Shown here: positions 5,080-13,815 of the stretch, one piece after another | Layout: the number at the start of each line of letters is the position of its first letter | Numbering within the stretch: the first letter of the stretch is position 1 | NCBI RefSeq assembly: GCF_003725695.1 | Contig: NZ_RJSE01000005.1 | Span: 1 to 64,000, forward strand | Reading direction: 5' to 3' | DNA length: 64,000 nt | Source of the DNA: Nocardioides marmoriginsengisoli | GTDB lineage: Bacteria; Actinomycetota; Actinomycetes; Propionibacteriales; Nocardioidaceae | The notes under the pieces: generated by a model | Database searches by the model: none | Seen by the model: only the letters and a program-made list of their open reading frames with translations | What the model was told of the DNA's origin: nothing | Position numbers and translations under genes: made by a program

Positions 5080-6495
5080 GTGCGCACCGAGCACCGCAAC
5101 ACCTCCGCGCCTACCCGGTGGGGGCGCGTGCTGCCGTGGGCGCTGGGACTGCTCGCCGCCCTCGTGCTCACCGAAGCCTGGCGCCAGGTCGGGCACCCCT
5201 ACATCGCCCACGACGACTGGGGCTTCCTGCTCCCCGTCGATGCGGCGCGACGCGACGCGATGCTCGATCACGTCCTGGCCGAGGGGCGCTGGCTCAACTA
5301 CCTGTGGTGGCTCGGGCCCGGGCACCTGCTCACCCCGGTGACCGCGGTGCTGCTCTTCGGGACCGCCTACCTGACCTTCGTCGCCGGCGTCGCCCGACGG
5401 TGGGCGCCGGGCTGGCTCGGCCTGCCGGTCGCGCTGGCGTTGTTCTCCTCCCCGATGATCGCCGACCTCTGGCTCTGGCCGGCCACCCTCGGGCCCTCGA
5501 TGCTGATCACGGCCGTGGCCGCCCTCACGGTCTCCCGCTGCGCGCGACGCCCCCAGCTGCTCCGCGCCTGGGTGGTGCTCGCTACCTTCCTGGCGTTCCT
5601 GAGCTATCCCCCGGCGGCCCTCGTGATCCTGGTGATCGTCGTGGTCGAGCTCGTCGACCGCAGCCTGCGCGAGCTGACCGGGATCACCGTCGTCTTCGGA
5701 CTTGCCTACGTCGCCAGCGCGCTGGTCGTCTTCACGCTGAACCAGATCGCCTTCGGCACCTTCGGCATCGAGCCGATGGCCTGGCGGCGCCCGAATCCGC
5801 TGCACGACCTGGGCGATGTCGGCCAGAACCTGCGCACGTACGCCGACAGCGTCGGCGAGCTCGTCGGCAGCACGACGATTCCGATCGCGCTCGGCGCCCT
5901 GGGCGTCGCCGTCTGTCTCGCACTGCCGCGGTTGCGCGCCCGCGGCCTGCGCCTCGTGCTGCTCGTCGTCGCCCTCCTCGGGGTGCAGGCCGCAACCACG
6001 ATCGCGAGCGGCACCTTCACGCCGTACCGGTCCAACGCCTGGCTCTGGCTGCTCGTGGTCGTTCCGTTCGTCTGGATCGCCCGGGAGACGAGCGCACGTC
6101 AATGGGGCCGCGCGGCCGCGGTGGTGGCGCTGGTCGTCGTCGGCTCCTGGGGTATCCGGTACTGGCAGGCCGCCGTCGAGTACTCCCAGGACCGGCGCGA
6201 GCACTACCAGCGGATCGAGGACCGGGTGGTGGCCGAGGCCCGGAAGGCGCCGTACGACGCCATCTACCTCCTCGGCAGCGAGGAGGACTGGCGCCGGGGC
6301 CTGTTCCGCCAGGAGACCCAGTACCTCAGCGAGAAGACCCGCGCCGACCACGGGATCACGCTGCTCGGGTGTCACCCGCCGTCCTGCCGGCTCGGCTCGA
6401 GACCGAGCGTGGTCGCCCGCATCGCGGCCGGCCGCCACGTGATGCGTACCGGTGACTACATCGTGGTGGTCCCCTCCGCGGCTCGCCACCGGTGA
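5080..6495 (+). CDS. Polytopic membrane protein, GtrII glucosyltransferase-like
   Basis: A 471-residue protein with about ten hydrophobic helices, an early AHDDWGFLLP motif after the first helix, and a C-terminal soluble tail. A short first periplasmic loop with DD, then many helices, resembles the GtrII family that transfers glucosyl units from lipid carriers to surface polymers. No direct motif proves this. I chose the GTG at 5080 because AAAGGA lies about 8 nt upstream and the hydrophobic segment starts soon after; the frame stays open upstream into the divergent acyltransferase gene. No homologous partner genes (flippase or bactoprenol glucosyltransferase) are adjacent. Confidence 0.6.
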   Translation: MRTEHRNTSAPTRWGRVLPWALGLLAALVLTEAWRQVGHPYIAHDDWGFLLPVDAARRDAMLDHVLAEGRWLNYLWWLGPGHLLTPVTAVLLFGTAYLTFVAGVARRWAPGWLGLPVALALFSSPMIADLWLWPATLGPSMLITAVAALTVSRCARRPQLLRAWVVLATFLAFLSYPPAALVILVIVVVELVDRSLRELTGITVVFGLAYVASALVVFTLNQIAFGTFGIEPMAWRRPNPLHDLGDVGQNLRTYADSVGELVGSTTIPIALGALGVAVCLALPRLRARGLRLVLLVVALLGVQAATTIASGTFTPYRSNAWLWLLVVVPFVWIARETSARQWGRAAAVVALVVVGSWGIRYWQAAVEYSQDRREHYQRIEDRVVAEARKAPYDAIYLLGSEEDWRRGLFRQETQYLSEKTRADHGITLLGCHPPSCRLGSRPSVVARIAAGRHVMRTGDYIVVVPSAARHR

Positions 6496-6529
6496 CGGGT
6501 GTTCTGAGAACTCTGCCGGTCCCTGGTCG

Positions 6530-6541
6530 TAGTTTGGGTGC
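6530..6541 (+). promoter_or_regulatory. Leaderless promoter -10 of the ABC exporter
   Basis: TAGTTT (6530-6535) fits TANNNT and ends 6 nt before the ATG, the spacing of leaderless actinobacterial promoters. An imperfect palindrome GTTCTGAGAAC lies just upstream (about 6500-6510) and could be an operator. Confidence 0.5.
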
Positions 6542-7447
6542 ATGAGTGCTGCTGTCATCGACGTGCAGGGGCTGGTCAAGGAGTTCGGTGCCTTCCGAGC
6601 CCTCGACGGCCTCGATCTCTCGGTCGCTCCCGGCGAGGTGCACGGGTTCCTGGGCCCGAACGGCGCCGGCAAGTCGACGACCATCCGGGCCCTGCTCGGC
6701 CTGCTGCGGATCGACGGCGGCACCGCGTCGGTGTTCGGCCTGGACCCCTGGCGCGACACCGTCGCGATCCACCGACGGCTGGCCTACGTGCCGGGCGACG
6801 TCGCTCTCTGGCCGAACCTGACCGGTGGCGAGACGATCGACCTGCTGACCCGGATGCGGGGCACCAAGCCGGACCCGGCCCGTCGGGGCGCGTTGCTCGA
6901 GCTGTTCGCGCTCGACCCGACCAAGAAGGGGCGGGCCTACTCGAAGGGGAACCGTCAGAAGGTCGCCCTGGTCGCCGCGTTCTCCGCCGACACCGATCTG
7001 CTGATCCTCGACGAGCCGACCTCCGGACTGGACCCGTTGATGGAGCAGGTGTTCAACGACTGCGTGGCCGATCACACCGCACGCGGCGCGACCGTCCTCC
7101 TCTCCAGCCACATCCTCAGCGAGGTCGAGCGGCTCGCCGAGCGGGTCACGATCATCCGGGACGGCCGGGCGGTCGAGACCGGGTCCCTCGCCGAGCTGCG
7201 ACACCTGAGGCGCACCAGGATCCGGGCCGAGGTGAGTGCAGCGGTCCCCGACCTCGGCGGCCTCGACGGCGTCCACGACCTCGGCGTCGAGGGCCGGTGG
7301 ATCAGCTGCTCGGTCGACCCCGACGCCCTGGAGAAGGTGCTCACCGCGCTGACCGGCGCTGGCGTGGTGTCCCTGACCAGCACGCCGCCGACCCTGGAGG
7401 AGCTCTTCCTCGACGCCTACCGGACCGATCCGGAGCGGACGCCGTGA
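6542..7447 (+). CDS. ABC transporter ATP-binding protein
   Basis: A 301-residue ABC-2-type exporter ATPase. Walker A is GPNGAGKST, Walker B is [13 protein letters not shown], and the H-loop is in LSSHIL. The signature is [11 protein letters not shown] rather than the usual LSGGQ, as is common in this drug/antibiotic exporter subfamily. A C-terminal ~80-residue extension follows. It overlaps the permease gene by 4 nt (GTGA), so the two are translationally coupled. The substrate is unknown. Confidence 0.9.
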
Positions 7448-9036
7448 CCAGCGGCACGCTCGCCGGTACGACGCTCCTGGTCCGGCACTCGTGGCGACGG
7501 GACCGGGTGCTCGCGTCGCTCTGGGGACTGGCACTCGTCGCGGTCGCCTACGCCTCTGCCGCCGCCACCTCCTCGCTGTACCCGACCGTGCGCGACCAGG
7601 TCGCCGCCGCCGAGGCGATCAACGCCAGCCCGGCGATCGTCGCGCTGTACGGGCCGATCCTCGACGTCACCAGCCTCGGTGAGCTGGCGATGACGAAGAT
7701 GACGGTCCTGTACTCGGTCTTCGTCGCGGCGCTGTTCGTCGTCCTGCTCCGCCGGCACACCCGGGTGGAGGAGGAGTCCGGACGTGCAGAGCTGCTGGGC
7801 GGCACCGCGATCGGCCGGGACGCACCGCTGGCCTCGGCGGTGGTCGAGTCGAGTGCCATCGCGGTGGCGATCGGCCTCCCGACCGCCGCCGTCAACGTCG
7901 CCGGAGGCCTCCCGCTCGCCGGGTCGCTGGCATTCGGCGCCGGCTGGATCGGGATCGGCCTCGTCGCGATCGGTATCGGGGCGGTCGCCTCCCAGGTCTC
8001 CGCCAGCGCCCGGACCTGCGGCGCGGCGGCGGCCGGGGCGATCGGCGCGGCGTACCTGCTCCGTGCCGTCGGCGACACCTCCGTGCACTGGCTCAGCTGG
8101 GCGACGCCGTTCGGGTGGTCGACCCAGCTCCGGGCGTACTCCGACCCGCGCTGGTGGGTGCTCGCCCTCTACGCCGTCCTGGCGGTCGCACTGCTCACCG
8201 GCGCGCAGGCGTTGCGAAGCCGGCGCGACCTGGGAAGCGGCCTGGTCGCCGCGCGCCCGGGGCCGGCCGACGCGGCGCCGGGACTCACCGACGCCCTGGC
8301 GCTCGCCCTGCGCGTGCACACCCCGACGATCGCGGTCTGGAGTGCGGCGACCGCCGTCCTGGGCGCAGTGCTCGGCGCGATCGTGCCGAACGTCGGCGAC
8401 CTCCTCGACTCGGAGGCCGCCCGCGAGGTGGTGGCCCGGCTGGGCGGCGACGGTGCTGTCGAACGAGCACTGATCGCTGCGGAGCTCTCGATCGTGGCGA
8501 TCGCGGTCAGCTGCTTCGGCATCGCCGTGATCGCGCACGGCGGCGCGGACGAGCAGGCGGGCCGCACCGAGCTGGTGCTGGCCACCGGTACCTCACGCGC
8601 GCGCTCCTTCGGCGCCACCCTGCTGGTCGCGCTCACCGGCGCGACCTGGCTCCTGGCCGTCTCCGGGGCCGCTGTCGCCCTCGGCTACGGGATCGTGGGC
8701 GGCGACGTCGGCGACACCTTCGGCGAGATCCTCCCGGCTGCGCTCGCCCAGGCGCCCGCTGCCTGGGTGGTGGTGGCGCTGGCCGCCCTCGCCTTCTCCG
8801 TCCGGGCGTCCTGGACCGTGGCCGGGTGGGGAGCGGTGGCGCTCTTCGTCACGCTCGGCCAGGTGGGCGAGCTGCTCGGGCTGCCGGCCGTGGTGCTGGG
8901 GCTCTCGCCGTACACGCACACGCCGTCGATGCCGGTCGAGGCCTTCGCCGTGGTCCCGGAGATGGTGCTGACCGCGATCGCGGCGGCACTCCTCGGCGTC
9001 TCCTGGATGCGGTACCGCACCCGCGACCTCGGCTGA
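7444..9036 (+). CDS. ABC transporter permease, polyketide-antibiotic exporter type
   Basis: A 530-residue membrane protein with about twelve hydrophobic segments arranged as two similar halves (each with a soluble [17 protein letters not shown] or [17 protein letters not shown] segment). This duplicated EExGRxELL pattern is typical of permeases annotated as polyketide antibiotic exporters. I chose the GTG at 7444 that overlaps the ATPase stop; the open frame continues upstream only as an out-of-phase reading of the ATPase gene. Together the two genes should form a complete exporter (two ATPases plus one double-size permease). Transport of a particular drug is not supported by the sequence. 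Confidence 0.88.
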
Positions 9037-9045
9037 CCGGTCAGC

Positions 9046-9633
9046 TCAGACGGTGCCGGTCTCCTCCTCGCGCAGCCGGGGCTCGGTGCGGTTCTCCGGC
9101 TTGATGCCGTGCTTGTCGGCGTAGAAGGCACGGACGAAGTCCATGTCGGCGACCAGGTCGCCGGACGGGTGGAAGGTCGGCCCCATTCCCAGGTTCCGGG
9201 TCGGACCGTCGACGAAGCCGAGGGTGATCGGCAGTCCGGTCTGCTGGGAGATCCGGTAGAAGCCGGCCTTCCAGTACTCCCCCTTGCCGCGGGTGCCCTC
9301 GGCGGCGATCGCCAGCAGGAACGCGTCGCTCCCCTCGGCCTCCGCCAGCAGCGCCCGGATCGCGGCGCCCGGGTTCTCCCGGTCCAGCGGGATGCCACCG
9401 GTCGCCCGCAGGATCACTCCGGCCGGCCCCTTGAAGTACGTGTGCTTGATCAGCACCTGCGGCCGGACCCCGTTGCTCCAGGCCATCAGCACGGTGACCA
9501 GCCAGTCCCACTGGGACGTGTGCGGGGCTCCCACCAGGATGCCGCTCTCGGGAACGCTCCCGACCAGCTTCCACCGGGTGAGCTTGAGAACGGTTCGGGC
9601 GAGGGCGGGACGGATCCTCATCGTGCGGGCCAC
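9046..9633 (-). CDS. PlsC-like 1-acyl-glycerol-phosphate acyltransferase family protein
   Basis: A 195-residue protein with the acyltransferase HX4D motif as HTSQWD (His38, Asp43) and the later AEGTR motif near residue 110. The short length and the absence of a clear membrane anchor match the soluble PlsC-like branch common in actinobacteria and proteobacteria. The GTG at 9633 has AGGAG 5 nt upstream; an in-frame ATG at 9621 is an alternative. It converges with the ABC permease gene. The acyl acceptor is unknown. Confidence 0.82.
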   Translation of the reverse strand: MARTMRIRPALARTVLKLTRWKLVGSVPESGILVGAPHTSQWDWLVTVLMAWSNGVRPQVLIKHTYFKGPAGVILRATGGIPLDRENPGAAIRALLAEAEGSDAFLLAIAAEGTRGKGEYWKAGFYRISQQTGLPITLGFVDGPTRNLGMGPTFHPSGDLVADMDFVRAFYADKHGIKPENRTEPRLREEETGTV

Positions 9634-9653
9634 GGGTCTCCTGCTCAGGGTGG

Positions 9654-10037
9654 GTGAAGGGTGAGCGTAGTGCGTGCCCCGGTGCGCAGCGTCAGCCGTC
9701 CCGCCACGCCCTCGCGGAAGCGCTCGACAGCGGGCGGGTTCTGGTGAACCCGATCGTGTACGCCGAGGTGTCGCTCGGCTTCGACCACGTCGAGGACCTC
9801 GACAACGCGATGCCTGCGAGCCAGTTCCTCCGAGAGCCCCTTCCCTACGCCGCAGGTTTCCTGGCGGGCAAGGCGTTCCTCGCGTACCGGCGTCGCGGAG
9901 GGTCGCGCCCGACGCCCCTTCCGGACTTCTACATCGGAGCGCACGCGGCTGTCGGCGGCTACCGGCTGCTGACCCGCGACGACAAGCGGTACCGGACGTA
10001 CTTCGCCGGGCTGGAGCTCGTCACCCCCGGCGGCTGA
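9654..10037 (+). pseudogene. PIN-domain (VapC-type) toxin remnant lacking its N terminus
   Basis: From about 9699 the frame encodes a typical VapC-like PIN domain (ALAEALDSGRVLVNPIVYAEVSLGF, then LPDFYIGAHAAVGGYRLLTRDDKRY). The conserved acidic residues of the middle (AEVS) and C-terminal (PDFYIGAH, TRDD) parts remain. The first strand, with the first metal-binding Asp (the usual hDxNhhh), is absent: the residues before RHALAEAL are unrelated and run back into the PlsC gene's upstream region. No antitoxin gene lies upstream. I read this as a 5'-deleted toxin gene, probably inactive. Confidence 0.7.
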
Positions 10038-10055
10038 GCACGGTCCCGGCAGGCT

Positions 10056-10096
10056 CTACCCCCGTGGTCGAGCCTGCCGAGACCCCTACCCCCGTG
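10056..10096. repeat. GTCGAG-type palindromic element flanked by an 11-bp direct repeat
   Basis: GGTCGAGCCTGCCGAGACC (10066-10084) is an imperfect palindrome of the same family as copies at 15640 and 31610. CTACCCCCGTG occurs at 10056-10066 and again at 10086-10096, directly flanking it. The arrangement looks like an inserted element with a target duplication, but it could also be a short tandem duplication. Confidence 0.55.
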
Positions 10097-10262
10097 ACCG
10101 CCGGGTCGCCCGGGGAAGGTCGTCGAAGATCGCGGCCAGGTAGTCGACCGGGTCGGACTCGTCGGCGCGCCAGACGGCGATCGGCGTGCCGTCCGCGCTC
10201 GCCAGGGTGTCCGGGGACGCCTTGGCCGGCCGTCGGTCGGCACTGATCTGGTCACGCCGCAT
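10086..10262 (-). CDS. Hypothetical protein, 58 residues
   Basis: A short acidic-to-basic ORF (MRRDQISADRR... WRADESDPVDYLAAIFDDLPRATRRSRG). ATG at 10262 has GGAGG 5 nt upstream, which is the main support. I recognise no family. Its stop codon lies within the right direct repeat flanking the palindromic element, so its C terminus may have been altered. It lies beyond the PIN remnant on the opposite strand and is not an obvious antitoxin. Confidence 0.4.
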   Translation of the reverse strand: MRRDQISADRRPAKASPDTLASADGTPIAVWRADESDPVDYLAAIFDDLPRATRRSRG

Positions 10263-10296
10263 GCTCGCCTCCAACCGTGGTGAACCTGTCCGGGTA

Positions 10297-10345
10297 GCGC
10301 GTCGCCCGGGCGGAAGGGGGATAAGACTCCGACCGGGCGACGCGC
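10297..10345 (-). terminator. Perfect 13-bp inverted repeat downstream of the sigma factor gene
   Basis: GCGCGTCGCCCGG (10297-10309) and its exact complement (10333-10345) are separated by 23 nt. It lies 75-123 nt after the sigma factor stop. There is no T-run, so a Rho-type or processing stem, or a regulatory site, is also possible. Confidence 0.5.
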
Positions 10346-10419
10346 AGTAGATCTCCCGGTGAACTGACGATCCCGGTCCCGAGATCCGACGCGGGCCGGC
10401 CTAGCTGGCCTAGACCAGC

Positions 10420-11757
10420 TCAGGGAACGGGCAGCGGCGGCAGCGTGACGGCGACGTCCGGGAGCGGCACCCGGTCGAGAACAGGCGCGTCCAGGACGTC
10501 GAGCTCACGGGTCAGCCGGGTCTCGGGCAGCTCGACCGGGACGACAGCGGTGCGTCCGGGGAGCGGGTCCTGCCGCAGGCTGACGGAGGGACACCCGGCG
10601 CCGGTCACCGAGCCGACGGCCGGTGCGACCAGCTCCGGGACCGTCGCGAGGCTGATCCCCGCCAGCGCCGTCGGTACGACGGACGGGAGCAGGTCGGCGC
10701 CCGCTGCGCAGGTCGGCGCGACCACCGCTGGAGTCACCTGCGACGCCGCCTTCACCCGGTGCGGAGCCGATGCCTTCACCCGCGCCTTCCGCAGCACGGT
10801 CGGCGTCGGCGCGACCTGGACGCGACTCGTTCGGACCGTGCCGTCCGGTTCCGGCTGACGCTCGCCGACGTCCACGGCCAGCACCGTCGCGGCTACCGCC
10901 CCGGCGACTGCGGCGGCGACCCCGTACCGGAACCCAGCGCTCGCGAGCCGGACGGACTCGAGCACGCCCATCCGGGCCGACTCCGAACCGGCGAGCACCA
11001 ACCCGATCGCGGCCGGTCCCAGCAGCGCGCCGAGCCTGGTGTTGATCGCGCTCAGCTCGCGGTATCCCTCGGCGCAGTGCGCGCACCCGCGCAGGTGCTG
11101 CCAGACCTGGCGGTCGTCGGCGGTGCGCCGGTTCCGGCCGCGCACGGTGGCGGCCAGGCTCCGGTGCACCTCGGCGCACTCCGGGTCGCAGCCCGGGAGG
11201 GCGTGCTCGGTCAGGTAGCGCTGGCGGAGCGCCTCCAGCGCGCGGGCCTTCAGCGCGTAGACCGCCGACGGGGCGATTCCGAGCTCGGTAGCGACCTGGT
11301 CGCCCGGCCGTCCCTCGACGAGGGTTGCCCAGAGCACCTGGCGCCAGCGGTCCGGAAGCCCTCGGAACGCCCGGCCGACCAGCGCCGACTCGGTCACGTC
11401 CGGAGTCTCGGCCACCAGCCGCAGCACCCGGTCGTCGTCCAGCTCGACCGGGGTGCCGGTCCTCCGCTGGCGGCGCAGCGCGGTGGTGTGCAGGTTCCGG
11501 ATCGTCGTCGCCACGTACGCCCGGACCACGTCGGTCGGACCGGCCCCGCGCGCGATCGCCGCGAAGACCGTGGCCATCGCCTCGGAAGCCAGGTCCTCGG
11601 CGTCCCCGGTGTCGGCCGCGACGAACCGGGCGACCGCGAGCGCGGAGGGCCAGCTGCGTACCCAGAGCACGGCAGCGGCATCCGGGTCGCCGGCGCGGGC
11701 CAGCGCCAGCAGCCGTCCGTCGTCGTACGTCTCCAGCGACTCGTGCCGAACCAGCAC
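10420..11757 (-). CDS. ECF sigma factor fused to anti-sigma-like zinc finger and membrane segment
   Basis: A 445-residue protein. Residues ~20-95 form a sigma-70 region 2 (DAEDLASEAMATVFAAI) and ~125-185 region 4 with a helix-turn-helix (GDQVATELGIAPSAVYALKARALEAL). Then comes HLRGCAHC (His221, Cys225, Cys228), the HxxxCxxC pattern of zinc-binding anti-sigma domains, a hydrophobic helix at ~277-296 and a ~150-residue Pro/Val-rich exterior tail. Thus sigma factor, anti-sigma-like domain and membrane anchor are in one chain; fused ECF groups of this kind are known in actinobacteria. The GTG at 11757 follows a G-rich site. A TAGTCT -10 box lies at 11814-11819. No separate anti-sigma gene is adjacent, which fits self-contained control. 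Confidence 0.8.
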   Translation of the reverse strand: MLVRHESLETYDDGRLLALARAGDPDAAAVLWVRSWPSALAVARFVAADTGDAEDLASEAMATVFAAIARGAGPTDVVRAYVATTIRNLHTTALRRQRRTGTPVELDDDRVLRLVAETPDVTESALVGRAFRGLPDRWRQVLWATLVEGRPGDQVATELGIAPSAVYALKARALEALRQRYLTEHALPGCDPECAEVHRSLAATVRGRNRRTADDRQVWQHLRGCAHCAEGYRELSAINTRLGALLGPAAIGLVLAGSESARMGVLESVRLASAGFRYGVAAAVAGAVAATVLAVDVGERQPEPDGTVRTSRVQVAPTPTVLRKARVKASAPHRVKAASQVTPAVVAPTCAAGADLLPSVVPTALAGISLATVPELVAPAVGSVTGAGCPSVSLRQDPLPGRTAVVPVELPETRLTRELDVLDAPVLDRVPLPDVAVTLPPLPVP

Positions 11758-11841
11758 CGCATCACCCCCCGGTCGATGTCTCCGGCGCCGCCACGATCGA
11801 CTGCCTGAGGGAAAGACTAAGCGCAGGACACCGCCGGTGTC

Positions 11842-13815
<1,974 letters not shown>

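Follow-up and report, generated by a model that had tools for sequence, protein, structure and literature searches.

How can a sigma factor act when its own chain runs on into an anti-sigma zinc domain and a membrane anchor? The question is raised by one gene of the window, i.e., the 64,000-nucleotide stretch of Nocardioides marmoriginsengisoli DNA that was analyzed, in which a sequence-only reading had placed these three elements in a single protein. Pfam matches, profile comparison and hydropathy, given below, agree with that architecture: judged from its sequence, the chain has both sigma2 and sigma4 complete, followed by a zinc anti-sigma (ZAS) domain bearing four ligands, a strong hydrophobic helix and a tail. 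Our answer, which we hold to be probable, is that the window protein is a membrane-tethered, self-inhibited ECF sigma factor, freed most likely by intramembrane proteolysis. The gene is read from a GTG start at 11757 to a TGA stop at 10422-10420, and is accompanied by two short elements:

10420-11757, minus strand: the whole window gene (ECF sigma, ZAS, membrane helix and tail), 445 aa, GTG start.
11765-11770, minus strand: likely ribosome binding site GGGGGG, a candidate from the sequence, 7 nt 5' of the GTG.
11827-11841, no strand assigned: inverted repeat GACACCG-G-CGGTGTC, seen in the sequence directly past the argH stop.

The G+C content at third codon positions is 0.88-0.98 across all parts of the open reading frame, tail included, and because it never falls below 0.88 the whole chain looks coding. 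A frameshift artefact merging two genes was ruled out, as third-position G+C is high along the frame. The argH gene lies 84 bp upstream, and a PIN-like open reading frame and an acyltransferase gene occupy the opposite flank. The PIN-domain frame (9588-10034, plus strand; Pfam E 1.2e-4, just under the cut-off) matches its profile from position 16 only, and its start is uncertain. Scans of 9900-12100 for sigma-70 promoters and terminators gave no match, a simple terminator scan reported nothing at the inverted repeat, and the 300 nt upstream of the window gene and of its two orthologues, compared in search of a common promoter, shared only short words.

The N-terminal part of the protein is that of an ECF sigma factor, with sigma-70 regions 2 and 4 only:

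11458-11736, minus strand: sigma2 domain, residues 8-100 (Pfam Sigma70_r2; structural match to ShbA).
11200-11403, minus strand: sigma4 domain with helix-turn-helix, residues 119-186 (Pfam Sigma70_r4_2; structural match to SigL).

Pfam Sigma70_r2 matches residues 39-100 (E 2.3e-8) and Sigma70_r4_2 residues 127-177 (E 1.8e-6), and the NCBIfam model of the ECF superfamily, TIGR02937, gives 52 bits against a cut-off of 42.9. In the structural model, residues 12-100 superpose on ShbA (Z 11.9, rmsd 2.1, 88 residues) and residues 118-188 on the SigL sigma4 chain of 3hug, the RslA complex (Z 8.4, rmsd 2.4, 71 residues), and the top Foldseek match is the ECF sigma factor AlgU (E 5.6e-4). Among the three orthologues (the window protein and two others), the sigma2 and sigma4 parts are 57-74% identical and the helix-turn-helix region is intact.

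The motif HLRGCAHC, pointed out earlier as following the sigma regions, indeed sits behind them, and its ligands align throughout the family:

11023-11184, minus strand: ZAS domain, residues 192-245, with helices at 192-204, 212-224 and 226-245 (hhalign, family profile).
11176-11178, minus strand: first zinc ligand, C194, aligned in the family.
11074-11097, minus strand: HLRGCAHC, residues 221-228, with ligands H221, C225 and C228, aligned in the family.

The predicted ligand spacing is C194-x26-H221-x3-C225-x2-C228, and the protein thereby displays, at the sequence level, what defines a ZAS domain, namely a helical domain in which a Cys or His ligand precedes H-x3-C-x2-C. Both orthologues (44-47% identical in the alignment) retain the four ligands, and hhalign aligned the three orthologous ZAS segments (A6) with those of 20 relatives (A7) at 98.4% probability; on these two grounds the match is taken to be more than chance. 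A profile (A5) of 26 ZAS segments, which includes the three orthologues left outside A7, found the solved structures of RslA (E 2.8e-6), RsiW (4.1e-4) and ChrR (0.014), with weaker matches (E 0.06-0.8) including a further anti-sigma factor as well as three unrelated proteins; the 26 rows were chosen by the H-x3-C-x2-C pattern, and the invariant columns are thus partly a matter of choice. The pattern is present in 63 of 75 family rows; among the motif-bearing rows of the alignment, L037 alone has His as first ligand, the others Cys.

Pfam zf-HC2, a general model of 35 positions that serves as a detection aid and not as a definition, matches 22 of the 26 family segments at E ≤1 and gave no match to the window protein. 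The alignment suggests that this miss is due to a one-residue insertion in the window clade, which has x26 between the first ligand and the His where x25 is usual. NCBIfam anti-sigma models matched the ZAS segment of the window protein weakly when it was searched alone (E 0.02 and 0.026), and the RsrA model matches 23 of the 26 family members at E ≤1 (best 2.5e-6). By analogy, the window protein would bind zinc. The absence of a separate anti-sigma gene, also claimed earlier, is in line with our results, as none is visible among the neighbours and the genome's seven zf-HC2 places all fall on other contigs; this genome search could miss similar proteins, since zf-HC2 fails to match the window protein itself.

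The conserved ligands bear on how inhibition might be relieved. RsrA is a redox-responsive ZAS protein, and the window protein keeps its four ligands as such proteins do; oxidation of the zinc site, or zinc loss, could open the ZAS clamp and leave the sigma factor active while tethered. Moreover, sigma-ZAS fusions lacking a membrane helix exist (10 of 74 tree rows, two of them in the window genome), so ZAS control without the membrane probably occurs in the family. For the window protein we nonetheless regard release without cutting as rather unlikely, since the membrane helix and tail are retained in all three orthologues and a tethered sigma factor would presumably have poor access to DNA.

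The reading of a tethered factor freed by proteolysis depends on what follows the ZAS domain:

10867-10926, minus strand: membrane helix, residues 278-297 (hydropathy; helix at 278-294 in the low-confidence model).
10423-10866, minus strand: Pro/Val-rich tail, residues 298-445, predicted disordered and probably outside (composition, model).
10708-10710, minus strand: tail Cys 350; each of the three orthologues has two tail Cys.
10591-10593, minus strand: tail Cys 389, the second of the two.

Hydropathy peaks at 2.02 over residues 279-297 (Kyte-Doolittle, 19-residue window). Other topologies may apply, given the weaker hydrophobic stretches at 237-255 (1.47), before the helix, and 360-378 (1.61), in the tail; many family members have a weaker stretch past the ZAS motif, so a second membrane pass would be compatible with hydropathy alone. 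By analogy with relatives, we infer a single pass with the N-terminus inside and the tail extracytoplasmic. Lys and Arg were counted over 20 residues on either side of the helix in 49 rows that have both helix and ZAS: they are more numerous on the N-terminal side in 35 rows, balanced in 11 and less numerous there in 3. The 49 include the window protein and two sister proteins, described below, and in a few of them (e.g., L008) the stretch taken as the helix may be the hydrophobic one that comes earlier in the chain. Secreted-type domains in the tails of two relatives also support an outside tail: FN3 domains in L059 (one of six proteins scanned) and a ricin-type lectin domain in the C-terminal part of a Streptomyces goshikiensis protein. 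The exterior position assigned earlier to the tail is thus backed by relatives, but not by the window protein's own charges, which are equal (3 before, 3 after).

The tail has the length and composition first described, i.e., 148 residues, rich in Pro and Val, with two Cys (15.6% Pro, 17% Val, 7.5% Arg and 2.0% Lys over the 147 residues 299-445), and these Cys would be expected to form a disulfide. The proposal that it senses an outside signal did not fare as well: no Pfam domain was found in it, its identity among the three orthologues is only 17-30%, with the count of two Cys kept, and the full-length AlphaFold2 model (pLDDT 58.5, pTM 0.37) falls below 50 for nearly all of 255-445, which predicts disorder. 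The model of residues 1-310, built from four sequences, is also weak (pLDDT 67, pTM 0.43), and the packing of ZAS on sigma that it displays is therefore not reliable. A fast-evolving, disordered tail with no recognised sensor domain would also suit a membrane-proximal activator regulated by turnover, whose C-terminal part sets location and half-life and whose sigma part is freed or destroyed by Clp. We consider this quite improbable, as the ZAS domain is about as conserved as the sigma parts (59-64% identity among the three orthologues versus 57-74%), which fits a specific clamp better.

In the self-inhibited, proteolytically released sigma factor that we favor, the ZAS domain would, as its family and that of the sigma regions lead us to expect, clamp the sigma regions of the same chain, and the clamped protein would be barred from joining RNA polymerase. 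An envelope signal would cause the tail to be cut, a site-2 (M50) protease would then cut the membrane helix, and with loss of the ZAS part a soluble sigma factor would be freed. M50 protease genes are present in the window genome, which says little, because they are also present in all 14 control genomes. According to the sections of PMC8999054 drawn upon here, proteolytic release is the expectation for groups ECF48, ECF52 and ECF53, and processing by Prc and RseP has been shown for IutY, a sigma factor with a fused anti-sigma part and the only ECF sigma factor whose proteolytic activation has been characterised by experiment. In the corresponding sections of PMC5826349, SCO4117, called the first characterised member of ECF52, had its expression activated in a strain in which it was cut down to the sigma part, and its protease is called uncharacterised by the authors. 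Release by proteolysis, as suggested earlier, is in our view plausible. Against our reading we count the equal charges around the helix, the fairly high Arg/Lys content of the tail, the weaker hydrophobic stretches and the weak model.

Relatives of the window protein are widespread. Matches at E ≤0.001 occur in 21 of 24 genomes of the genus, some only weakly and via generic sigma regions, and within the taxonomic family the family profile matches 89 of the 120 genomes searched at E ≤1e-25, 63 of the 89 with a single match; whole-genome searches scored few candidates per genome (12 or 5), and copy numbers are lower bounds. At E ≤1e-45, four of 341 genomes of the taxonomic family match. The fourth (G287, locus L097) was dropped from the window clade, as its protein resembles the common form when aligned; the clade is found in three of 341 genomes (the window genome G000, G019 and G020), and in three of 24 within the genus.

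Outside the taxonomic family, tblastn against plasmids returned 17 records, 13 of them from Streptomyces, none covering 80% of the window protein, the best stretches spanning about residues 32-239 (sigma and ZAS). The S. goshikiensis relative (the only one of the 13 to be scanned) aligns to residues 32-239 at 37.8% and carries sigma, HLRACPDC, a helix at 321-339 and the lectin domain. A contig scan with the window protein as single query found Ruania rhizosphaerae (L021) and a weak match in a Candidatus Kuenenia record (L022). Fused sigma-ZAS-helix frames are also seen on two IMG/VR contigs (L053:2905-4170, plus strand; L054:2917-4008, plus strand), each preceded by a small frame without a Pfam match, the two small frames being similar by eye; further scans of such putatively viral contigs gave no locus beyond these two.

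Several variant arrangements were seen among the loci. The helix-less sigma-ZAS fusions fall in several places of the tree (L024:6418-7161, minus strand, and L025:6431-7291, plus strand, both in the window genome; L066, L067, L078 and L081-L085). At L038 one gene fuses a sigma factor to a membrane helix and lacks the ZAS motif (5467-6825, plus strand); a plain sigma gene belonging to the family lies after it (7198-7785, plus strand). At L068:3737-5315 (minus strand) the sigma part and the ZAS-helix part lie in two overlapping frames, by natural split or sequencing error. Proteins of the common form reach 1769 aa among the loci read, and those of L055-L058 (1670-1769 aa in total) have very long tails that look repetitive by eye, with many Cys-pair units in L055, L056 and L057. 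At L027:9480 and 12 other loci, a promoter-like motif, AACGG-N14-YATGACGCG, precedes the common family gene by about 80-165 nt. The form AACGG-N13 to 17-TGACG was looked for in 57 upstream stretches and occurs in 13, with one locus appearing twice; it is absent upstream of the window gene and its orthologues. The best dyad upstream of family genes reaches 10 of 18, versus 4-6 in 20 shuffles, among sequences that are related; the full motif has one exact site in the window genome, at the common family gene itself, and looser forms are not clearly commoner there than controls (25 versus 21; 19 versus 49).

In a tree of 74 rows (L068_3737 left out; L019, L054, L070 and L071 relabelled as helix-bearing at hydropathy 1.52-1.68, below the 1.7 cut-off), the three orthologues, the window protein among them, fall together with L028, from the window genome, and L069, from G020, at 100/99. 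The L028/L069 pair is placed as sister to the window protein at 98/83, on a long branch (3.39) that may affect this placement. These two proteins belong to a second family:

L028:5449-6792, minus strand: sister gene in the window genome; its relatives are L069 and L089-L094.

Searched with a profile of L028/L069, 8 of the 24 genomes of the genus give strong matches, with a best E of 7.3e-84 or lower (G000, G005, G010, G012, G016, G017, G019 and G020). In all eight proteins the link from sigma2 to sigma4 is 21-29 residues long, versus 37 in the window protein, and the helix-turn-helix spans 12-19 residues, versus 31; in the alignment, about half of the sigma4 helix-turn-helix stretch is missing. 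The ZAS ligands C, H, C and C are kept in all eight, as are a hydrophobic stretch (hydropathy 2.63-2.87) with Arg ahead of it and, at the very C-terminus, a Cys loop C-[NS]-x-[LV]-x-[HK]-[LIV]-[LF]-x-x-C (C-x9-C). Pfam matches none of the three sister proteins tried (L028, L069 and L089), and NCBIfam gives no match to L028 at E ≤1e-5. The gene sits between homologues of an AAA ATPase and of a formamidopyrimidine-DNA-glycosylase-type protein in 8/8 loci, as judged from gene clusters across loci and a Pfam run on the copies of the window genome. Values of dN/dS below 1 in two pairs, G012/G016 and G000/G005, suggest purifying selection (overall 0.31 and 0.50; sigma remnant 0.36 in both; ZAS 0.14 and 0.57, respectively). 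The sister seems to be a conserved protein that has gone from sigma factor to something else.

Next to such a family, the window gene could itself be a duplicate that is losing its sigma function and has little role today. The long-branch clade that it shares with the sister proteins points that way, as do the small number of genomes carrying its clade and its surroundings: when the first 40 kb of the window was compared with 16-kb stretches at the two orthologues, only the window gene was common to them, and a flavin-oxidoreductase-type gene is common to the two orthologue loci. The conservation of sigma2 and sigma4 across species, with the helix-turn-helix intact, speaks against decay, which we judge very unlikely.

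The sister is present in all three genomes bearing the window clade, a co-occurrence that is suggestive only, because there are eight carriers among 24 related genomes. It is conceivable, though we rate it as doubtful, that both proteins form a two-part system, with the sister acting in trans on the tethered sigma factor. Both would go back to one fused protein, from which the sister would have lost some of the link between sigma2 and sigma4 and roughly half of the helix-turn-helix. Held at the membrane, the sister would catch the freed sigma factor, either as an anti-sigma factor or as a decoy, or it would vie with the sigma factor for the protease. Were this true, anti-sigma factors could arise by decay of sigma factors. 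Among the open-licence papers that a search listed, nothing fits a sigma-crippled fused protein, nor a tethered actinobacterial sigma factor beyond PMC8999054 and PMC5826349; papers on ECF41 domain fusions and on methanobactins did turn up.

Fused sigma-ZAS-membrane proteins are little studied, and related genomes hold a natural series of them: plain sigma, sigma-ZAS, sigma-ZAS-membrane-tail, and ZAS-membrane with a crippled sigma. Since the family forms such a series, the role of each part in a self-inhibited, tethered sigma factor can be tested by comparing natural variants.

Ordinary ZAS anti-sigma factors are encoded by separate genes. RslA, RsiW, ChrR and RsrA have the ZAS sequence in common with the window protein and differ from it in that respect; the separate arrangement also occurs in the window genome, where an ECF-like sigma gene and an anti-sigma gene of the RsrA family (TIGR03988, E 1.9e-28) stand side by side at L027:5962-6998 (minus strand), with some 2.5 kb separating them from the common fused gene. 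Fusion into one chain is already known in actinobacteria: the sections of PMC8999054 considered here list ECF48, ECF52 and ECF53 as sigma-zinc finger-membrane fusions, a class that the sequence-only reading had left unmentioned. Compared by description, ECF48 and ECF53 resemble the window protein in their C-terminal fusions with a zinc finger and one to two membrane helices, with extensions that reach 400 residues (PMC8999054, same sections). IutY of Pseudomonas putida (ECF243) is likewise a sigma factor that carries a membrane-bound anti-sigma part in its chain and becomes active through proteolysis, but it is an iron-starvation sigma factor of another phylum, and its description in those sections of PMC8999054 mentions no ZAS domain. 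The likeness to ECF52, as portrayed for SCO4117 of Streptomyces coelicolor in the sections of PMC5826349 considered, extends to sigma, zinc finger, membrane region and proline-rich extension in one chain, all of which the window protein has. ECF52 is, however, set apart in that description by a C-terminal carbohydrate-binding domain, and the window protein, with its short, predicted disordered tail and divergent clade, lacks one and is for this reason not filed as ECF52. Overall, the window gene is a well-formed case of a known kind, and the sister family is the unusual, unexpected piece that deserves follow-up.
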